From Prochlorococcus sp. AG-402-M18 (lineage in GTDB: Bacteria; Cyanobacteriota; Cyanobacteriia; PCC-6307; Cyanobiaceae), in assembly GCA_003216595.1 (NCBI GenBank), contig QCIQ01000003.1:62001-126000 (forward strand): a stretch of 64,000 nt of DNA, read 5' to 3'. The position numbers and the translations under genes were made by a program. This document shows, one piece after another, positions 8,999 to 44,772 of this stretch (the first letter of the stretch is position 1; each line of letters starts with the position of its first letter). The notes under the pieces were generated by a model. It was given only the letters and a program-made list of their open reading frames with translations, ran no database searches and was not told where the DNA came from.

Positions 8999-9808
8999 TT
9001 AAACCAATTGCCCATCATCAATTAAGGATTTTAATTTTTTTTGTACCTCTGGATTATCCAATTGCTCCAAAGCTGTCCTTGCTTCATACCTAACTGAAGG
9101 CTCTCTATCATTTAATAAAACAGAAATAAAAGTCTCTACTATTTGAGTTTGGATTTCCGCACTCAAAAGGGCATAAAGGCGGCCTAGGGACCAAATACAG
9201 TTACTTCGAACTATTGGTTCACCATCTACTTGCAAACTTTCAAGTAATTGATTCGCAGCTGGGGGAGAACTCTCTACTGAATTTAGTCCAACCTCTGCTA
9301 GAGAGCTTGATGCCCACAATCTCACGGCAGCGACATCTTGTTTTAATGCATTAATCAGAGGTTCAAGAACTGGAGCGTCAGGGTAATTTCCGAGACTCCA
9401 TGCAGTAGCTTTTCGAACATAGGCGTTACTATCAAACCTCAATAAATGCAATAAAAGATCAATAGCTTTTGGACAAGGATTTCTACCTAAAGCATAAACA
9501 GCACTCATCCTGACTACAGGAGAAGGCTCGTCAAGTAAAGGTAATAAGAATGGAAGAGCTCTAGGGTCTCTATGCTCGCAAAAGACTCTTAAGCCCTGAA
9601 GTCTCTCATTATTACCAGATTGCAGCCATTTCAACGCAAGATCACATTCTTTTGATGAATTCCCTTGATCTCCATCAATTTTATCCAATTCAATTTCATC
9701 TAAAGGATCTCCTGCCAATTGAGCAGCTAATTCTCTAGCTAAAAGATCAGGGTCTATAGCCAAATTAGCTAACCCTTTTTCACTTAATTTTTGATTTTCA
9801 TCATTCAT
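8999..9808 (-). CDS. HEAT-repeat / PBS-lyase-like repeat protein
   Basis: Repeated helical units DPRALPFLLPLLDEPSPVVRMSAVYALGR / DSNAYVRKATAWSLGNYPD / DREPSVRYEARTALEQL. Confidence 0.85.
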   Translation of the reverse strand: MNDENQKLSEKGLANLAIDPDLLARELAAQLAGDPLDEIELDKIDGDQGNSSKECDLALKWLQSGNNERLQGLRVFCEHRDPRALPFLLPLLDEPSPVVRMSAVYALGRNPCPKAIDLLLHLLRFDSNAYVRKATAWSLGNYPDAPVLEPLINALKQDVAAVRLWASSSLAEVGLNSVESSPPAANQLLESLQVDGEPIVRSNCIWSLGRLYALLSAEIQTQIVETFISVLLNDREPSVRYEARTALEQLDNPEVQKKLKSLIDDGQLV

Positions 9809-36757: not shown

Positions 36758-36997
36758 ATGAACAATCTCAAGCCTATTTTCACCGCCATCATTATTTCTA
36801 TGTCGTTTTCACTGATGGGATGCTCAGGTAATTCCCAAACAAACGGAACTCCTGCACTTTTTGAAACGAAAGCAGAAGCTGAAAAAGCAGCAAAAAATTT
36901 CAATTGCACTGGAGCGCATAAGATGGGAGATAAATGGATGCCTTGCAAAAGTCATACAGATCATGAATCTCATGATGGGCATCACCATCATCACTAA
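36758..36997 (+). CDS. small lipoprotein with DUF3721-like motif and His-rich tail
   Basis: Lipobox-like SLMGCSG; FETKAEAEKAAKNFNCTGAHKMGDKWMPCKSH; tail HTDHESHDGHHHHH. Confidence 0.78.
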   Translation: MNNLKPIFTAIIISMSFSLMGCSGNSQTNGTPALFETKAEAEKAAKNFNCTGAHKMGDKWMPCKSHTDHESHDGHHHHH

Positions 36998-37009
36998 TAT
37001 TGTTAGATA

Positions 37010-37453
37010 ATGACAAATTCAAATAGTAACGATCAGAACAATTCCGAAAGTCCTTCTCATTGCGGAAGTAAACCAAAAAAAATTGCATTTGGGATAGCAC
37101 CACTCGGATTTATATCCATTGGAATTGTTCCCATGGGAATTGTTACCATTGGGATTGTTCCCATGGGTGTCGTTTCTATAGGCGTAGTAGCTATGGGAGT
37201 CGTTAATGCCTCAATAGTAGGAATGGGAATATTTTCTGCAGGAATAACAACTATGGGTCTAAAGGTGTGGAGTCCGGAAAATAATGCTATTCACGAGTCA
37301 ATCAATCGTTCACATTCTCCTTCTTCAAAAAATATATATGCATATCCAACTAAAGCTCAGGCAGAGATCGAAGCCAAAAAGATCGGATGCAATGGTGTCC
37401 ATAAGATGGGTGCATTATGGATGCCTTGTGCAATCCATATCAACCCTAACTAA
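37010..37453 (+). CDS. pentapeptide-period (GIVPM-type) repeat membrane protein with C-terminal DUF3721-like motif
   Basis: GIAPLGFISIGIVPMGIVTIGIVPMGVVSIGVVAMGVVNASIVGMGIFSAGITTMG; then YPTKAQAEIEAKKIGCNGVHKMGALWMPC. Confidence 0.75.
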   Translation: MTNSNSNDQNNSESPSHCGSKPKKIAFGIAPLGFISIGIVPMGIVTIGIVPMGVVSIGVVAMGVVNASIVGMGIFSAGITTMGLKVWSPENNAIHESINRSHSPSSKNIYAYPTKAQAEIEAKKIGCNGVHKMGALWMPCAIHINPN

Positions 37454-37587: not shown

Positions 37588-38205
37588 CTAAGAATATATA
37601 TCTTCAACTAACATTGAACCCTTTTCGCAAATTTGCTCCTGTGAAGGGAACTCTTTATCGGAGCAACAACATTCTCCTTTATCTGAATTGTTGATCCAAT
37701 TAATAATCCCTGTTCGGATTGGTTGAGAACATACTTGTCCTTCTTTAAGGTGATTGATTTCTTCGCTTGTTAAAGGATCAGCATGTTCAATAAAAAGAGA
37801 CTCTTTAAGCCTAAAAGAACATGTCTCATTCCATTGCTCAAAACAATTTATATGGTTTATAAAATCATTCCATGCTTCTTTCATTGATCTATATCCCTTC
37901 CTTTTTAACTCTTTGCTGAAAACAGCTTTAATGAATTCATTAAAATTCTGCAATTCATGAGGTGTAAAAGATTGTTTGACATGGCTTTCATAATCAGGAA
38001 AGTCAAGTTTTTTCTCTATTGATTGCAGTCTTTGTTCAATCATATGAAATCGAGAATCTATCGATTCAACAGGCAGATTCTCTATTTGATTAACAAAACA
38101 ATCAGAGACATAACTAACCAATGATTTCCCCGAAATCCTCGCACTCTCTTTAATCTTTTCTAAAAGTTTTGAATCAATACTTACATTGAGTTGCGTTCTC
38201 TTCAT
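37588..38205 (-). CDS. ribbon-helix-helix-type DNA-binding protein with Cys-rich C-terminus
   Basis: MKRTQLNVSIDSKLLEKIKESARISGKSLVSYVSDCF (RHH pattern); coiled region; tail GECCCSDKEFPSQEQIC. Confidence 0.6.
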   Translation of the reverse strand: MKRTQLNVSIDSKLLEKIKESARISGKSLVSYVSDCFVNQIENLPVESIDSRFHMIEQRLQSIEKKLDFPDYESHVKQSFTPHELQNFNEFIKAVFSKELKRKGYRSMKEAWNDFINHINCFEQWNETCSFRLKESLFIEHADPLTSEEINHLKEGQVCSQPIRTGIINWINNSDKGECCCSDKEFPSQEQICEKGSMLVEDIYS

Positions 38206-38365: not shown

Positions 38366-39151
38366 CTATCTATTGTTTGGTAGCAAAATCAATGAAATCA
38401 CACAAAGAACACTAATCAAAGGTCCAGGAGGCAAATTCAAAATCATGGCAAGAGAAAAACCTATAAGAGATAAAATCAATCCAAATATGGAGGATCTAAC
38501 CATCGCAATCCATAAAGATCTTGCTTTCTGTAATCCCAACAAAGTTGGGGTTGAAAGTAACGCAATCACAAGAATGACTCCCACTGCAGACATTGAACTC
38601 ACGATGACAAGTGCCGTAGTAAAACCAAGAGCCAAATTTAAAAAAGATACATTAACTCCACTTGAAGCAGCTCCTTCTGGGTCTAAACCAATATGAACAA
38701 GCTTGTCGTAACCAAAAAGCATCAAGCAAATAAATACCGAGAAAGCGATCAAAGTCCTTAGCAGATCACTCAAATTTGCAGTTAATAAATCTCCAAATAA
38801 AACAGCCTCCAAATCAATCCTGATACCCAGTAGAGGTATAAGCAAAACACCGAGTCCCATCGAACCAGCAAGAATTGTATTCATAACAGCTTCATAATTT
38901 TGATTTTTTTTATTTGTCAAACTTTCTGCTGCAATAGCTCCTACCAAGCCACTGACGACTCCACCAATAGAAGGGTCCAAACCAAGCGCCATAGCCAAAG
39001 CAAGACCTGGCAGCACACAATGCGAAATTAAATTAACTTGAAGAAGCCTTTTATGAGTGATCAATACAGTTCCCATGGCAGGGCAAAGTATTCCTGAAAA
39101 GGAAGTTATCAAAAGAGGAATTATCCACCAATTTGTATTAAAAAAAGACAT
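38366..39151 (-). CDS. znuB: zinc ABC transporter permease
   Basis: ABC-3 family permease: GTVLITHKRLLQVNLISHCVLPGLALAMALG; adjacent to zur/znuC. Confidence 0.88.
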   Translation of the reverse strand: MSFFNTNWWIIPLLITSFSGILCPAMGTVLITHKRLLQVNLISHCVLPGLALAMALGLDPSIGGVVSGLVGAIAAESLTNKKNQNYEAVMNTILAGSMGLGVLLIPLLGIRIDLEAVLFGDLLTANLSDLLRTLIAFSVFICLMLFGYDKLVHIGLDPEGAASSGVNVSFLNLALGFTTALVIVSSMSAVGVILVIALLSTPTLLGLQKARSLWIAMVRSSIFGLILSLIGFSLAMILNLPPGPLISVLCVISLILLPNNR

Positions 39152-39168: not shown

Positions 39169-39609
39169 ATGGTCAGTAAGAGAGATCAACTTAAGATCTT
39201 GTTAATGAGTAAAAGCAAGCCTGAAATCACTAAACGTCAACAGCAACTGCTCAATGAGCTTAAGAAATGTACTGATGAATTGAGTGGGCAAGAACTGCAT
39301 AGACAACTTCATAATGGTGAAAAGGCAATGGGACTGACCACGGTCTATCGAAACCTGCAAGCACTAGTAAAGCAAGGTTTGATTCGTTCCAGACATCTTC
39401 CCAATGGTGAGGTTCTTTATGCGCCAGTTGAAAGAGATATTCATCATTTAACTTGCGTAAGCTGTGGAGAAACCACACGCTTGAAGGGATGTCCGGTCAA
39501 AATGATGGATCTGTCGAAAAACACTTCTAAAAAATTTGAGCTTTTGTTTCATACTCTTGAGTACTTTGGTCTCTGCCAAAATTGTTCTCAGCAACTTAAT
39601 GCTGGATAA
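39169..39609 (+). CDS. zur: Fur-family regulator, probable zinc uptake regulator (start may be ATG 39205)
   Basis: TTVYRNLQALVKQGLIR, HHLTCVSCGETTRLKGCPV, CQNCSQQ; within znu locus. Confidence 0.85.
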   Translation: MVSKRDQLKILLMSKSKPEITKRQQQLLNELKKCTDELSGQELHRQLHNGEKAMGLTTVYRNLQALVKQGLIRSRHLPNGEVLYAPVERDIHHLTCVSCGETTRLKGCPVKMMDLSKNTSKKFELLFHTLEYFGLCQNCSQQLNAG

Positions 39610-39632: not shown

Positions 39633-40331
39633 CTATAACTTCCACCTCAAATAATTAATTGAACTTAGTTTTTCTTGAACTTCCTGAGGGCTGCCAGAAG
39701 CCAAAATAATTTTATCTAAAGCAACAACCTTGTCATAGGCATTTAAAGATGTTCCCCAGTCATGACTACTAACAAAAACCGTGAATCCCGAATCGGCTAG
39801 CTGACGAATGATTAAGAGGAAATCTTCTTTAGCGGGAGGATCAAAAGCGGAGCAAGGTTCATCAAGAAGAAAAATTTTGGCTGGATTCATTAATGTTTTG
39901 GCAAGTAGTGCTCTTTGTTGTTGTCCACCAGACAAAGCATCCAGTCTCCTTTTTGCTAAATGAGATATTCCAACACGTTGAAGGGCAGCTTCTAATTCAC
40001 AACAAGTCGATTTGGAATGATTTACTCGACCTAAAGAGACTAATCCTTCAACAGTAATTGGAAAATTCCAATTCAGCTTTCCCCTCTGAGGCATTAAAGC
40101 CACTTGAGATCGATTATTTCTCAATGGTTTTCCGTCAACAGTAATTTCTCCTTGATCCGGAGTGCTACTCCCTTGCAGCAAGCTTAATAATGTAGACTTA
40201 CCAGCGCCATTCGGACCAACAAGAGCAGTCAAAGTACCTTGCTCAAGCTTTAGAGAAACCTTGCTTAAAGCAGGTTTGATATTACTCGAATAGGAATATG
40301 TCACATTTTCAGCAATCAAACTAGACATCAA
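39633..40331 (-). CDS. znuC: zinc ABC transporter ATP-binding protein
   Basis: ALVGPNGAGKSTLLSLLQG, LSGGQQQRALLAKTLM, IFLLDEPCSAFD. Confidence 0.9.
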   Translation of the reverse strand: MMSSLIAENVTYSYSSNIKPALSKVSLKLEQGTLTALVGPNGAGKSTLLSLLQGSSTPDQGEITVDGKPLRNNRSQVALMPQRGKLNWNFPITVEGLVSLGRVNHSKSTCCELEAALQRVGISHLAKRRLDALSGGQQQRALLAKTLMNPAKIFLLDEPCSAFDPPAKEDFLLIIRQLADSGFTVFVSSHDWGTSLNAYDKVVALDKIILASGSPQEVQEKLSSINYLRWKL

Positions 40332-40378: not shown

Positions 40379-40393
40379 TGAAAATGATTATCG
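40379..40393. promoter_or_regulatory. putative Zur box between znuC and znuA
   Basis: TGAAAATGATTATCG closely matches cyanobacterial Zur consensus TGATAATNATTATCA (two mismatches), in the divergent znuC/znuA intergenic region. Confidence 0.65.
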
Positions 40394-40417: not shown

Positions 40418-41944
40418 ATGTCGAATTTTTCTAATCAGTCCAAAAAGGCTAAACCCATAATCAATAAAACAGTTCTCAAAAGTTCTCTTGTTGCTGGAGC
40501 ATTTTTATTTTCTGGAATTAATCAGAGTGCACAGGCAAATTCAAAACCAATTGTTGCCGTAGAGCCATTAGTCTGCGATGTCGTTTCTGCGATTGCACCA
40601 CCTTCAACACCTGTAACCTGCTTAATTGATAGAAAACAAGATGTTCATGATGTCAAAATCACTCCGAGGCAAGCTCAAACACTAAAAAGTGCAAACCAAG
40701 TATTTACTCTTGGTTCAGAGATGACCCCTGCAATGAAAAAATGGTTAGATAATCCTTTAACTGTTGTTGTAGGCGTAAGTGCAATAGAAATAGACGATCA
40801 TCATGACGATCACGATGATCATTCAGCTGCTAAGGATGATGACCACGATGATCATGACGATCATTCAGCTGCTAAGCATGACGATCATGACGACCACGAT
40901 GATCATGGCGATGCCCATGGAGAGGGAGCTTTTGAATGGGCTGGTGTTTTTGATCTTTCAGCAGGAACATACAAATGGTCTTTTGCCAAAGTCGATGGAG
41001 ACTATGCTGATCCTGCAATGAAAATGGTTATTCTCAACTCTGGTGATATTGAAGCATCAGAAAAGCTTGCTAAAGAATTATTAGGGTCTCAGAATTCAGA
41101 AACTAAACGCAATAATGACAAACTTGTTGCGCAGGAAAAAGCATATTTTCTCTCATTTAATCAGAAGAAAGACATCACAACATTTACTGTAGAAATCAAA
41201 AAAGCTGGTAAATATGCATTCTTTACTGAGCATATGCCTTTTGAATTTGAAGCCGACGAACATTTCTTTAAGGATATTTCAGGCGACGATGTTGAACCTA
41301 TTGCTCAAGTCCCAGATGAAGGCGATCACCATCATCACCATGACCATGGTGGGCTAGATCCTCATATCTGGCATGACCCTCATAACATCATCAAGATGGG
41401 AAATGTCATTTCTAAAAATATCAATAAGAAAATTTCCTTCTTTGACAGAGAAACAAAAAAAGTTTTAAAAGAGAGGACTCAAGCAGTTAATTCTATTTTG
41501 GAAGATCTCGATTTATGGACTCAAAAACAAGTTGCCACAATCCCTACTTATCGAAGGACAATCGTTTCTAAGCACAAAGCGATGGAATATTACGGAGATG
41601 CATTTGGCTTGAAGACTTTGAGTCTATTAGATTACGTTGGTGATTCTTCCAGCCTTAGACCAGAGACTATTTCAACGGTAATAGCTGAGCTGAAAGAAGA
41701 AAACGTGAAAGTATTATTCGCTGAGCAAAAGCCTCCTTCCAAGCTATTGAAAAACCTGAGCAGACAAACTTCCACCCCTATTGCAAGAAATCAGATCTTT
41801 GTTGATGGTCTAATGCTAGAAGGGAATACTGTTTCAGTAGCAGTACACAACACATGTACAATTGTTGATTCGCTTGGTGGAGAATGTGACGAGAAAGAGG
41901 GTGATGAACTTGAGAGTAAATGGAATGATTTAAGTAACCCTTAA
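40418..41944 (+). CDS. znuA: zinc ABC transporter substrate-binding protein with His/Asp-rich repeats and an inserted extra domain
   Basis: Signal peptide; VAVEPLVCDVVSAIAPPSTPVTCLIDRKQDVHDVKITPRQAQTL; HHHHHDHGGLDPHIWHDPHN; SLRPETISTVIAELKEENVKVLFAEQ. Confidence 0.9.
   Translation: MSNFSNQSKKAKPIINKTVLKSSLVAGAFLFSGINQSAQANSKPIVAVEPLVCDVVSAIAPPSTPVTCLIDRKQDVHDVKITPRQAQTLKSANQVFTLGSEMTPAMKKWLDNPLTVVVGVSAIEIDDHHDDHDDHSAAKDDDHDDHDDHSAAKHDDHDDHDDHGDAHGEGAFEWAGVFDLSAGTYKWSFAKVDGDYADPAMKMVILNSGDIEASEKLAKELLGSQNSETKRNNDKLVAQEKAYFLSFNQKKDITTFTVEIKKAGKYAFFTEHMPFEFEADEHFFKDISGDDVEPIAQVPDEGDHHHHHDHGGLDPHIWHDPHNIIKMGNVISKNINKKISFFDRETKKVLKERTQAVNSILEDLDLWTQKQVATIPTYRRTIVSKHKAMEYYGDAFGLKTLSLLDYVGDSSSLRPETISTVIAELKEENVKVLFAEQKPPSKLLKNLSRQTSTPIARNQIFVDGLMLEGNTVSVAVHNTCTIVDSLGGECDEKEGDELESKWNDLSNP
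40791..40925. repeat. tandem repeats encoding (HDDHDDHSAAK)n metal-binding loop in ZnuA
   Basis: Protein HDDHDDHSAAKDDDHDDHDDHSAAKHDDHDDHDDHGDAHGEG; near-identical gatcattcagctgctaag units. Confidence 0.8.
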
Positions 41945-41956
41945 CTTTTACAAATA

Positions 41957-41993
41957 CAATCCTGTCTACATTGATAAAATGCAGACAGGATTG
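41957..41993. other. strong intercistronic stem-loop downstream of znuA
   Basis: CAATCCTGTCT...AGACAGGATTG, 11-bp perfect stem, plus inner CATT/AATG; no T-tract follows. Confidence 0.75.
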
Positions 41994-42001
41994 CAACAAA
42001 A

Positions 42002-42319
42002 ATGTTTCCAACTAAAGGGTTTAACGCCTATAGACAACACTGGGAAGATCAGGCAAGTTTTATGGATAAAGCCCCATGGGATAGAGATAAAATCTTAAAA
42101 CTTACTATCTCAACTGACTTCGATGACAATTTAAAAGAACTTCAATTTTCAAATCATTCGCTGAAGAAAGAAAATGGAAAAAATACAGTAAGATTAAAAG
42201 TTCCTTACAATTATTTTGAGCTAGATGATTTTGAATCAAAGTCACTAGACTTATTGGGAATACAAGAGACTTGGCTAACTGATATTTCTCTTGACAACTC
42301 ACATTGTTCACATTTTTAG
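42002..42319 (+). CDS. hypothetical protein in operon with COG0523 GTPase
   Basis: 105-aa ORF ending 9 nt before the next CDS; no recognised family. Confidence 0.6.
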   Translation: MFPTKGFNAYRQHWEDQASFMDKAPWDRDKILKLTISTDFDDNLKELQFSNHSLKKENGKNTVRLKVPYNYFELDDFESKSLDLLGIQETWLTDISLDNSHCSHF

Positions 42320-42328
42320 TTAAAGGAA

Positions 42329-43711
42329 ATGAGCATTAAGGGAAAAGTACCGGTAACCATATTGACTGGTTTCCTAGGATCTGGCAAAACGACTCTACTT
42401 AATCGAATCCTGAGCGAAGAACATGGTAAAAAAATAGCTGTTATTGAAAATGAATATGGTGAAGTTGGTATTGATCAAGGATTAGTAATCAATGCTGACG
42501 AAGAGGTCTTCGAGATGTCCAATGGTTGCATCTGCTGCACCGTACGTGGAGATTTAATTCGTGTACTAGGAAACCTCATGAAGAGGCGAGACAAATTTGA
42601 CTATGTATTAGTTGAAACTACTGGTCTCGCTGATCCTGGTCCTGTCGCTCAGACATTCTTTATGGACGATGAAATCCGTGAGGAGTTTTCACTTGATGGA
42701 ATAGTCACACTTGTTGATGCCGCCCATATAGAGCAACAACTTGGTCGAAGTGATGAGAGTTCGGAGCAAGTTGCCTTTGCTGACGTCCTTGTCCTAAATA
42801 AAACCGATCTAGTTTCAGATGAATCACTCGACAACTTAGAATCACGGCTACGCGACATGAATCGTATGGCTCGTGTCATACGCAGTAAACAAGCAGACGT
42901 CTCAATTGATAATGTGCTTAATCTAAGTGCTTTTGATCTAGATCAAGTACTTCAGCGTCGTCCAACTTTTCTTGAACCAGAATACCCATTTGAGTGGACA
43001 GGTGTTTTTTCACTTGAAAAAGGTCGCTATGAACTTACGCTCGAAGAAGGTCCAGACCCCACAATGTCTCTTGTCCTGTTATTAAACCAAGGCAAGGATG
43101 AGACATCACTCAACTCAGGGGCTGAATCATGCGTAAGACTATATGCCGAACAAGAACAACTTATGAATCCAGGGGATATGGTTCCAGTCGGCAAACATGT
43201 GAGCCTTCAACTGCAATCCGAAGGGAGTAAGTCCTTCTTCATAGATGTTGATAAGGCAAGGGATATAGGTCTATTCACTCAACATACAGCCGAAGAATTT
43301 AATATGAAATTAACGAAAGTAAATACTCCTTCTACAGACGAGATAGATAATGATCAGAACATCTCTACAATTTCTCCAATAGCTGAGAGGGTCTGGGTGG
43401 CCGAACACGAACACGACGATGAAGTTGGTTCATTCGCTATCGAGAGAGTAGGCAATGTCGATCCAGAAAAACTAAATAAATGGTTAAGTCGACTCCTGTC
43501 AGAAAAAGGTGTGGATATATTTCGTACGAAGGGATTCATTAGTTATGCGGGAGAGTCTAAGCGAATAGTTTTTCAAGGAGTACACATGCTCTTCACCGCA
43601 CAACCTGATAAAGAATGGGGCAATGAACCTCGCCGTAACCAACTCGTCTTTATCGGTAGAAATCTTGATGAAGCAGAAATGAGTAGGGAGTTTAACAAAT
43701 GTCTGGTATAG
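42329..43711 (+). CDS. COG0523-family (CobW/ZNG1-like) GTPase metallochaperone with inserted extra domain
   Basis: VTILTGFLGSGKTTLLNRIL; EMSNGCICCTVRGDL (CxCC); VLNKTDLV; C-terminal CobW_C-like region; HEHDDE. Confidence 0.9.
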   Translation: MSIKGKVPVTILTGFLGSGKTTLLNRILSEEHGKKIAVIENEYGEVGIDQGLVINADEEVFEMSNGCICCTVRGDLIRVLGNLMKRRDKFDYVLVETTGLADPGPVAQTFFMDDEIREEFSLDGIVTLVDAAHIEQQLGRSDESSEQVAFADVLVLNKTDLVSDESLDNLESRLRDMNRMARVIRSKQADVSIDNVLNLSAFDLDQVLQRRPTFLEPEYPFEWTGVFSLEKGRYELTLEEGPDPTMSLVLLLNQGKDETSLNSGAESCVRLYAEQEQLMNPGDMVPVGKHVSLQLQSEGSKSFFIDVDKARDIGLFTQHTAEEFNMKLTKVNTPSTDEIDNDQNISTISPIAERVWVAEHEHDDEVGSFAIERVGNVDPEKLNKWLSRLLSEKGVDIFRTKGFISYAGESKRIVFQGVHMLFTAQPDKEWGNEPRRNQLVFIGRNLDEAEMSREFNKCLV

Positions 43712-44772
43712 AAGCATTTAGTCCCAAGGGAATGCTTCATGAAGGTTGGTCTACTCAAGTTGACGACTACGCGATTGTCTGCGGTTGGGCACTACAAGGT
43801 AAAACTTTTTTAGTAGGTGATGTCGCTGGTGGGCTTTACGCATTTGAGGGGAAAGATGGAAAGCTCATTTGGAAAGTAAAAGACATACATGAAGGTGGCT
43901 TACTAGCAATGTCTATTCATCCAGATGGAAATACTTTTGCAACTGCTGGCCAAGATGGACATGTGTATATATGGGAAAGCCAAGAGGGTAAATCAACTAA
44001 AAATTTGGAACTTGGGAAAGGATGGGTTGAGCACATCGAGTGGTCCCCAGATGGAAGATTTTTAGCAGTAGTTTTTACCAAGTATGTCTATGTTTTTGAT
44101 GAAAAAGGTAAAGAACACTGGAGGTCAGAGGAACATCCCAGTACTGTCAGCGCGATTGCATGGTCTGATTCAAATGAATTAGCAACAGCATGTTATGGCC
44201 AGGTAACTTTTTTTGATGTAGTTAGCGACAAGGTAAATCAAAAGTTGGAATGGCGAGGTTCACTGGTATCTATGGTGCTTAGTCCAGATGGAGACATAGT
44301 GGCATGCGGTAGTCAGGATAATTCTGTTCATTTCTGGCGTCGTTCAACTAATGAAGATTCAGAGATGACAGGTTATCCAGGTAAACCAAGCCACCTGGCT
44401 TTTGATCAAACTGGCACAGTTCTTGCTACCGGAGGTAGTGATCGAGTGACAGTTTGGAGCTTTCATGGCGATGGCCCTGAGGGCACTGTGCCAGGCGAGT
44501 TAATGCTTCATACGGAACCAATTTCTTGCCTTGCCTTCTCAAATGGTGGGATGCTTTTAGCTTCTGGTGCTAGAGATGGTTCGGTTTTTTCTTGGTTTCT
44601 CCAAAAAGATGGACAGGGTGATCCGATTGGTGGAGCTTTTTCAGGTGATCTTGTAAGCCAAATCGCTTGGCATCCTGATGACAGTGCCTTGGCTGCAATA
44701 AATGCAAACGGAGGAATTACGGTTTGGAAGTTCAAGTTTCGGACATCAACAGCACCTAAAGGATTCGAATAA
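43699..44772 (+). CDS. WD40 beta-propeller protein
   Basis: Repeats LAMSIHPDGNTFATAGQDGHVYIWES, SMVLSPDGDIVACGSQDNSVHFWRR, CLAFSNGGMLLASGARDGSVFSWF; overlaps GTPase gene by 13 nt. Confidence 0.88.
   Translation: MSGIEAFSPKGMLHEGWSTQVDDYAIVCGWALQGKTFLVGDVAGGLYAFEGKDGKLIWKVKDIHEGGLLAMSIHPDGNTFATAGQDGHVYIWESQEGKSTKNLELGKGWVEHIEWSPDGRFLAVVFTKYVYVFDEKGKEHWRSEEHPSTVSAIAWSDSNELATACYGQVTFFDVVSDKVNQKLEWRGSLVSMVLSPDGDIVACGSQDNSVHFWRRSTNEDSEMTGYPGKPSHLAFDQTGTVLATGGSDRVTVWSFHGDGPEGTVPGELMLHTEPISCLAFSNGGMLLASGARDGSVFSWFLQKDGQGDPIGGAFSGDLVSQIAWHPDDSALAAINANGGITVWKFKFRTSTAPKGFE

Follow-up and report, generated by a model that had tools for sequence, protein, structure and literature searches.

Binding proteins of Cluster A-I (PF01297), including ZnuA, AztC and PsaA, share the backbone of the ZnuA described here, and ZnuA proteins commonly carry a His-rich loop; the known structures and most homologues are without a folded module. 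Similarly, the COG0523/G3E family (YjiA, CobW and ZigA) shares with the GTPase described here the G domain with its CXCC motif and the CobW_C domain. An added metal-handling domain is found in AdcA, a ZnuA-like protein fused to a C-terminal ZinT domain which has its own Pfam family. Within COG0523, the members of subfamily 5 are clustered with WD40 and znuABC genes, and Zur sites in Prochlorococcus have been reported (PMC2770081); no mention of an inserted domain was found in the part of that source dealing with this subfamily. Likewise, within the open-access literature, a search of an account of the Zur regulon of a marine Synechococcus (PMC9337993) brought up no such domain. ZepA, a Zur-controlled zinc exoprotein with a beta-sandwich domain A, occurs in cyanobacteria and other phyla, and is defined by an H-X2-9-H-F/Y-H motif and PEP-CTERM (PMC10957091).

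The stretch of 64,000 nucleotides of Prochlorococcus sp. AG-402-M18 analysed here (hereafter the window) encodes a ZnuA protein and a COG0523 GTPase which each incorporate a copy of the same additional module. The features of the locus are as follows, with coordinates counted from the first base of the window.

38366..39151, minus strand: znuB, ABC-transporter permease (ORF translation, by eye)
39169..39609, plus strand: Fur-family regulator, probably Zur (ORF translation and position, by eye)
39633..40331, minus strand: znuC, ABC-transporter ATPase (ORF translation, by eye)
40379..40393, plus strand: putative Zur box TGAAAATGATTATCG in the znuC/znuA intergenic region, with 2 mismatches to TGATAATNATTATCA
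40418..41944, plus strand: znuA, exported PF01297 protein with inserted module (ORF, translation, Pfam)
Up to about 40537, plus strand: signal-peptide-like stretch of ZnuA (sequence)
40793..40921, plus strand: His/Asp-rich tract of ZnuA, immediately 5' of the module (sequence)
40928..41257, plus strand: module core, ZnuA copy (BLASTP, hhalign, AlphaFold2); the predicted fold may extend to about 41311
40934 (E), 41009 (D), 41231 (H) and 41243 (E), plus strand: invariant residues of the ZnuA copy
42002..42319, plus strand: ORF of 105 aa, function unassigned, between znuA and the GTPase gene
42329..43711, plus strand: COG0523/G3E GTPase (cobW and CobW_C) with inserted module (translation, Pfam, YjiA alignment)
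42527-42538, plus strand: CXCC motif of the GTPase (NGCICC in the translation)
42986..43309, plus strand: module core, GTPase copy (BLASTP, hhalign, AlphaFold2)
42992 (E), 43055 (D), 43283 (H) and 43295 (E), plus strand: invariant residues of the GTPase copy
43400..43426, plus strand: His-containing tract AEHEHDDEV between the module and CobW_C (sequence)
43699..44772, plus strand: WD40-repeat gene, overlapping the GTPase stop codon (ORF, Pfam)

The best first codon of znuA is the ATG at 40418, while the mechanical ORF starts one codon upstream at a TTG (40415). The window ZnuA occurs in a zinc context of znuBC, a Zur-like gene and the putative Zur box, which is the sole site in the window with two or fewer mismatches to the Zur-box pattern. 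The GTPase is clustered with WD40 and znuABC genes, a neighbourhood that fits subfamily 5. The GTPase stop and WD40 start overlap by 13 bases (43699-43711), and an identical overlap is present in a second cyanobacterial locus (L062; 8283-8295) and an archaeal locus (L187; 2184-2196), which suggests translational coupling conserved across domains of life. No Pfam or NCBIfam match was obtained for the 105-aa ORF, a counterpart of which occurs at the equivalent position (9070-9396) in locus L124. Elsewhere in the window, two adjacent ORFs with DUF3721 (36758-37453), one with a His tail (GHHHHH) and the other with GLTT repeats, are possibly metal-related, and a 205-aa ORF (37588-38205, minus strand) has an N-terminal region that is CopG-like by eye and only weak Pfam matches (DUF6364, Globin).

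The earlier note, made from the sequence alone, had claimed that the same extra domain lies in ZnuA (about 40925-41270) and in the neighbouring COG0523 GTPase (about 42982-43315). The segments were found in these spans and frames, and the claim is borne out by BLASTP, hhalign and AlphaFold2 models. Comparison of the whole ZnuA with the whole GTPase by BLASTP gave one strong match (E=5e-9), starting at the modules, while the ZnuA module searched against the whole genome matched only itself (4.6e-88) and the GTPase (3.6e-6). The alignment of the two segments with HHalign was significant, with a profile-profile probability for the families of 98.3 % (E=1.9e-14). The AlphaFold2 models of the ZnuA module (mean pLDDT 93.1, pTM 0.87) and the GTPase module (mean pLDDT 83.6, pTM 0.77), which might have proved unrelated, have the same order of main strands and helices (E E E H E .. 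E E E h E); as their input alignments had members in common the models are partly dependent, and their likeness was judged by this element order. That the ZnuA and GTPase segments are one homologous domain of ~110 aa is near certain, and the models predict it to be an independently folding, beta-sandwich-like domain of ~110 residues.

The module does not form part of the fold of either host. The Pfam ZnuA family (PF01297) matches the window ZnuA (154 bits; gathering cut-off 29) only on the flanks of the module, and in the GTPase the module lies between the matches to cobW (PF02492, 7e-62; 8-184) and CobW_C (PF07683, 4e-25; 367-459). Furthermore, positions 7-214 and 363-455 of the GTPase align to 4-214 and 221-313 of E. 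coli YjiA, so that 148 GTPase residues, including the module, take the place of the 6-residue YjiA linker. A His-rich linker is usual at the module position in the module-less COG0523 proteins of related cyanobacteria, while a short, sometimes His-rich linker is found there in module-less ZnuA proteins. The module thus occupies the same position as the His-rich loop of ZnuA and the His-rich linker of COG0523, but differs from these low-complexity stretches in being folded and conserved, and it lies between or next to them. Membership of the canonical ZnuA or CobW fold, an outcome which would have overturned the earlier claim, is ruled out by the Pfam flanks, the YjiA alignment and the module-less homologues. 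Taken together with chance similarity, against which the BLASTP, genome search and hhalign results also stand, this explanation retains next to no probability.

No known domain could be assigned to the module. Comparison with Pfam, NCBIfam and PDB sequences yielded no consistent or significant match, and comparison of the fold likewise gave no significant match, the nearest neighbours being generic beta-sandwich proteins. The ZinT family was absent from the Pfam matches of 19 modules at E values up to 5. The module therefore represents a domain family without a name so far, with no entry in the copies of Pfam and NCBIfam that were searched. The window ZnuA resembles AdcA in that a domain for metal handling has been added to a metal-binding protein, but the module is internal, matches no family and occurs in four kinds of protein, whereas ZinT is appended at the C terminus. 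With ZepA the module shares a beta-sandwich domain, zinc handling, Zur control and occurrence in cyanobacteria and other phyla, but the alignments, on inspection, contain no H-X2-9-H-F/Y-H motif, and the modules are without PEP-CTERM.

Each of the six genomes of the genus that are closed in a single contig contains both module copies, while in the further 36 genus genomes the ZnuA module was matched in 31 and the GTPase module in 32, those without a match being incomplete assemblies. Across an even sample of the cyanobacterial phylum the module was found in 31/386 genomes. Among these, both copies occur in several genera of the same family and only the GTPase copy in a few genomes; four carriers belong to other families, and their readable hosts are GTPases. 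In a genome of another family (L062; 4.7 Mb), a NicO-type transporter gene, the GTPase copy and a WD40 gene follow one another. Two tandem modules, with no unknown residues within them, occur in the ZnuA of some Prochlorococcus (L078, L144, L145, L147 and L157) and represent natural duplication. By comparison, an 873-aa double-module frame (G271) contains a run of Ns and was treated as an assembly artefact. Duplication between neighbouring genes can be rejected as the sole origin of the two forms, as the ZnuA and GTPase copies are hundreds of kb apart in some genomes (G341 and G397), and many lineages have the GTPase form only.

Outside the cyanobacteria, profile searches for further module proteins and their neighbourhoods, as proposed in the earlier note, revealed four kinds of host in bacteria and archaea, namely ZnuA-type binding proteins (SBPs), COG0523 GTPases with WD40, haloarchaeal stand-alone lipoproteins and an Alicyclobacillus membrane protein. 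Among 84,980 species genomes scanned, 271 relatives of the ZnuA form were identified. The 80 listed among these include proteins of Halothiobacillaceae, another gammaproteobacterium, a Rhizobiaceae MAG, a Pelagibacteraceae SAG and a Nitrosopumilus MAG, all five of which are ZnuA-family proteins with the module at the same position. In sampled genomes, and with seed genomes counted, an earlier profile matched 2/399 Pseudomonadota and 2/200 genomes of an archaeal phylum, while a broader profile matched 6/385 and 7/369 genomes of two proteobacterial classes (seed genomes again counted); the new proteobacterial matches are mostly COG0523 GTPases. The Nitrosopumilus genome contains both forms, as in Prochlorococcus, with the GTPase gene followed by WD40, a pairing that other cyanobacteria, Pantoea and Paraburkholderia also show. 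Plasmid records include haloarchaeal binding proteins with the module, as well as GTPases with WD40 in Pantoea and Paraburkholderia. No module was found in viral contigs or phage records, and a phage-borne module was rejected on this basis. ZCRP-B of diatoms, reported as a NikA-type protein, shows no sign of the module and was likewise rejected as a host. Three GTPases (L225, L226 and L231), from two alphaproteobacterial genomes (about 1.4 Mb) and one gammaproteobacterial genome, are by look very close to the cyanobacterial form, which suggests transfer of the entire GTPase gene.

The remaining two architectures likewise come from plasmid records. The haloarchaeal lipoprotein-like hosts (183-208 aa) comprise almost solely module and His tracts. 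The stand-alone module gene of Natrinema versiforme (L190) is located directly 3' of a urease operon, pointing to nickel as a possible ligand of the module. The Alicyclobacillus host (P0006) is a 303-aa membrane protein with an HX4DH motif (HSILPDH in the translation), in which the module lies in a loop between His tracts; no Pfam or NCBIfam family match was obtained, and the motif provides a lead only to a putative NicO/NiCoT-type transporter. The module usually occurs among or beside His-rich tracts, with no such tract 5' of the module in locus L156 and only a short tract, 3' of the module, in the GTPase copies.

Comparison of the modules with the backbones in which they occur indicates that the module itself has moved. 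The SBP modules are 69-76 % identical across cyanobacteria, proteobacteria and Nitrosopumilus, whereas the lobes share 20-35 % identity in most pairs, and such near-constant modules in divergent backbones argue for movement of the module. For example, the modules of the proteobacterial and Nitrosopumilus SBPs are 69-74 % identical to that of the window ZnuA, against 20-31 % for the N-lobe and 20-27 % for the C-lobe, while within Prochlorococcus ZnuA the module and both lobes diverge in step. The nearest solved backbone relatives also differ, being enterobacterial ZnuA for L141, the 5W56/5KZJ periplasmic group for L155 and Mn-binding proteins for the window protein, the zinc specificity of which is thus not certain. 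In the module tree, a single clade (100/96) unites the SBP modules from cyanobacteria, proteobacteria and Nitrosopumilus, and those of haloarchaeal SBPs group with the haloarchaeal stand-alone proteins (89/77); the tree is unrooted with many weak deep branches, and does not decide the original type of host. In L141 and L142, GC3 is lower in the module (0.34-0.38) than in the backbone (0.49-0.50), as acquired DNA would show. The GTPases show the reverse of the SBP pattern, with modules that are 25-44 % identical outside close relatives against 60 % or more in the G domain, which fits a long, stable residence of the module. An assembly chimera is unlikely to underlie the cross-phylum SBPs, as their modules differ mutually and from those of Prochlorococcus by 20-31 %, and module SBPs were recovered from several independent genomes, in two cases on contigs of more than 200 kb. 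The 5 kb contig of L155 is weak evidence alone, and a further proteobacterial genome (L233) has the module in a similar backbone. As the module spans four architectures and both bacteria and archaea, and stays nearly constant in backbones that are unrelated, the suggestion of a mobile, beta-rich module of ~110 aa is upheld.

Among 208 distinct modules, which include 39 representatives at less than 80 % identity, five residues never vary (E, G, D, H and E; 208/208) and W, G and P hardly do; the five positions are retained across all four architectures. The Glu, Asp, His and Glu residues are, from this conservation, candidate metal ligands, but the four charged residues may instead be structural. 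A signal peptide is present in ZnuA but not in the GTPase, which starts at its P-loop strand; this places the hosts on opposite sides of the membrane. A link to zinc or transition metals on both sides is supported for the exported ZnuA and cytosolic GTPase, and extends to the wider metal-linked hosts, the metal context of which includes the Zur box, the NicO-type transporter gene (L062), the urease operon, and metal-regulator and cation-transporter genes. Recurrent His tracts, metal transporters and the Zur box point to a ligand that is probably a transition metal.

On balance we favour the module as a metal-gathering and transfer domain acting with the flanking His tracts, and consider this reading rather probable, while metal binding by the module itself has about an even chance. 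Of the roles originally proposed (sensor, transfer or docking), transfer fits best; nothing found supports sensing. On this view the module was inserted into His-rich linkers of several transition-metal carriers that are unrelated to one another; in ZnuA it sits within the loop outside the inner membrane, and in the GTPase within the linker between the G domain and C-terminal region in the cytosol. Zn2+ (or Co2+/Ni2+) would be gathered by the His tracts and held or positioned at a putative site by the four invariant charged residues (Glu, Asp, His and Glu), and the metal may then be handed to the carrier's own site, the cleft of ZnuA or the CXCC of the GTPase. Against this gathering and transfer role stand the many ZnuA and COG0523 proteins that function without the module, the His tract that is missing 5' of the module in L156 and short in the GTPase copies, and structural neighbours that are generic beta-sandwiches.

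A docking domain that binds no metal, and joins carrier and acceptor through a partner such as a membrane component, the WD40 protein or another carrier, would account for the conserved hydrophobic positions (F, W and F) and for the WD40 gene that is almost always found 3' of the GTPase gene, WD40 proteins being docking platforms according to the part of PMC2770081 concerned with them. The invariant set is, by contrast, chiefly charged (E, D, H and E), and no WD40 gene is found near SBP-only or stand-alone hosts. The hosts are moreover distributed over the cytosol, periplasm, and cell surface or membrane, which makes a single common protein partner unlikely and a shared ligand, such as a metal ion, likely; docking is thus an unlikely role. 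Alternatively, the module could be passive, a rigid spacer by which the His-rich loop is shaped or protected, its invariant residues only stabilising the fold. Its constant location in or beside a linker, the structural roles open to charged residues and the likeness to generic beta-sandwiches are consistent with such a spacer, which is hard to square with the 69-76 % identity of SBP modules across phyla or with stand-alone proteins of little but module and His tracts, and we regard it as improbable.

Much of the dissolved Zn and Co in the marine plankton setting is organically bound, and the module clade that is common in SBPs stems largely from marine plankton. Binding of an organic metal complex or metallophore rather than the bare ion, by which the carrier would take up complexed metal, is in keeping with this origin, but the GTPase copy acts in the cytosol and no small-molecule binding fold was matched, leaving this the least probable of the proposed functions. 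Returning to metal gathering and transfer, a wider and distinctly tentative proposal is that the module is a general metal hand-over domain for import and cytosolic delivery, which would make the carrier a better scavenger at extremely low Zn or Co, would have spread by domain-sized transfer between bacteria and archaea with repeated insertion into metal-relay loops, and would form a matched chain from ZnuA to the COG0523 chaperone.

The near-constant modules in unrelated backbones represent an unusually clean natural case of horizontal transfer at the level of a domain, and the occurrence of a small domain with invariant residues in both ZnuA and COG0523 makes metal hand-over by His-rich loops directly testable. 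The module appears to be a metal-handling unit that can be used again and again, shifted from protein to protein in evolution, and in an ocean phototroph that ranks among the most abundant this family connects the capture of zinc outside the cell with the delivery of metal in the cytosol.
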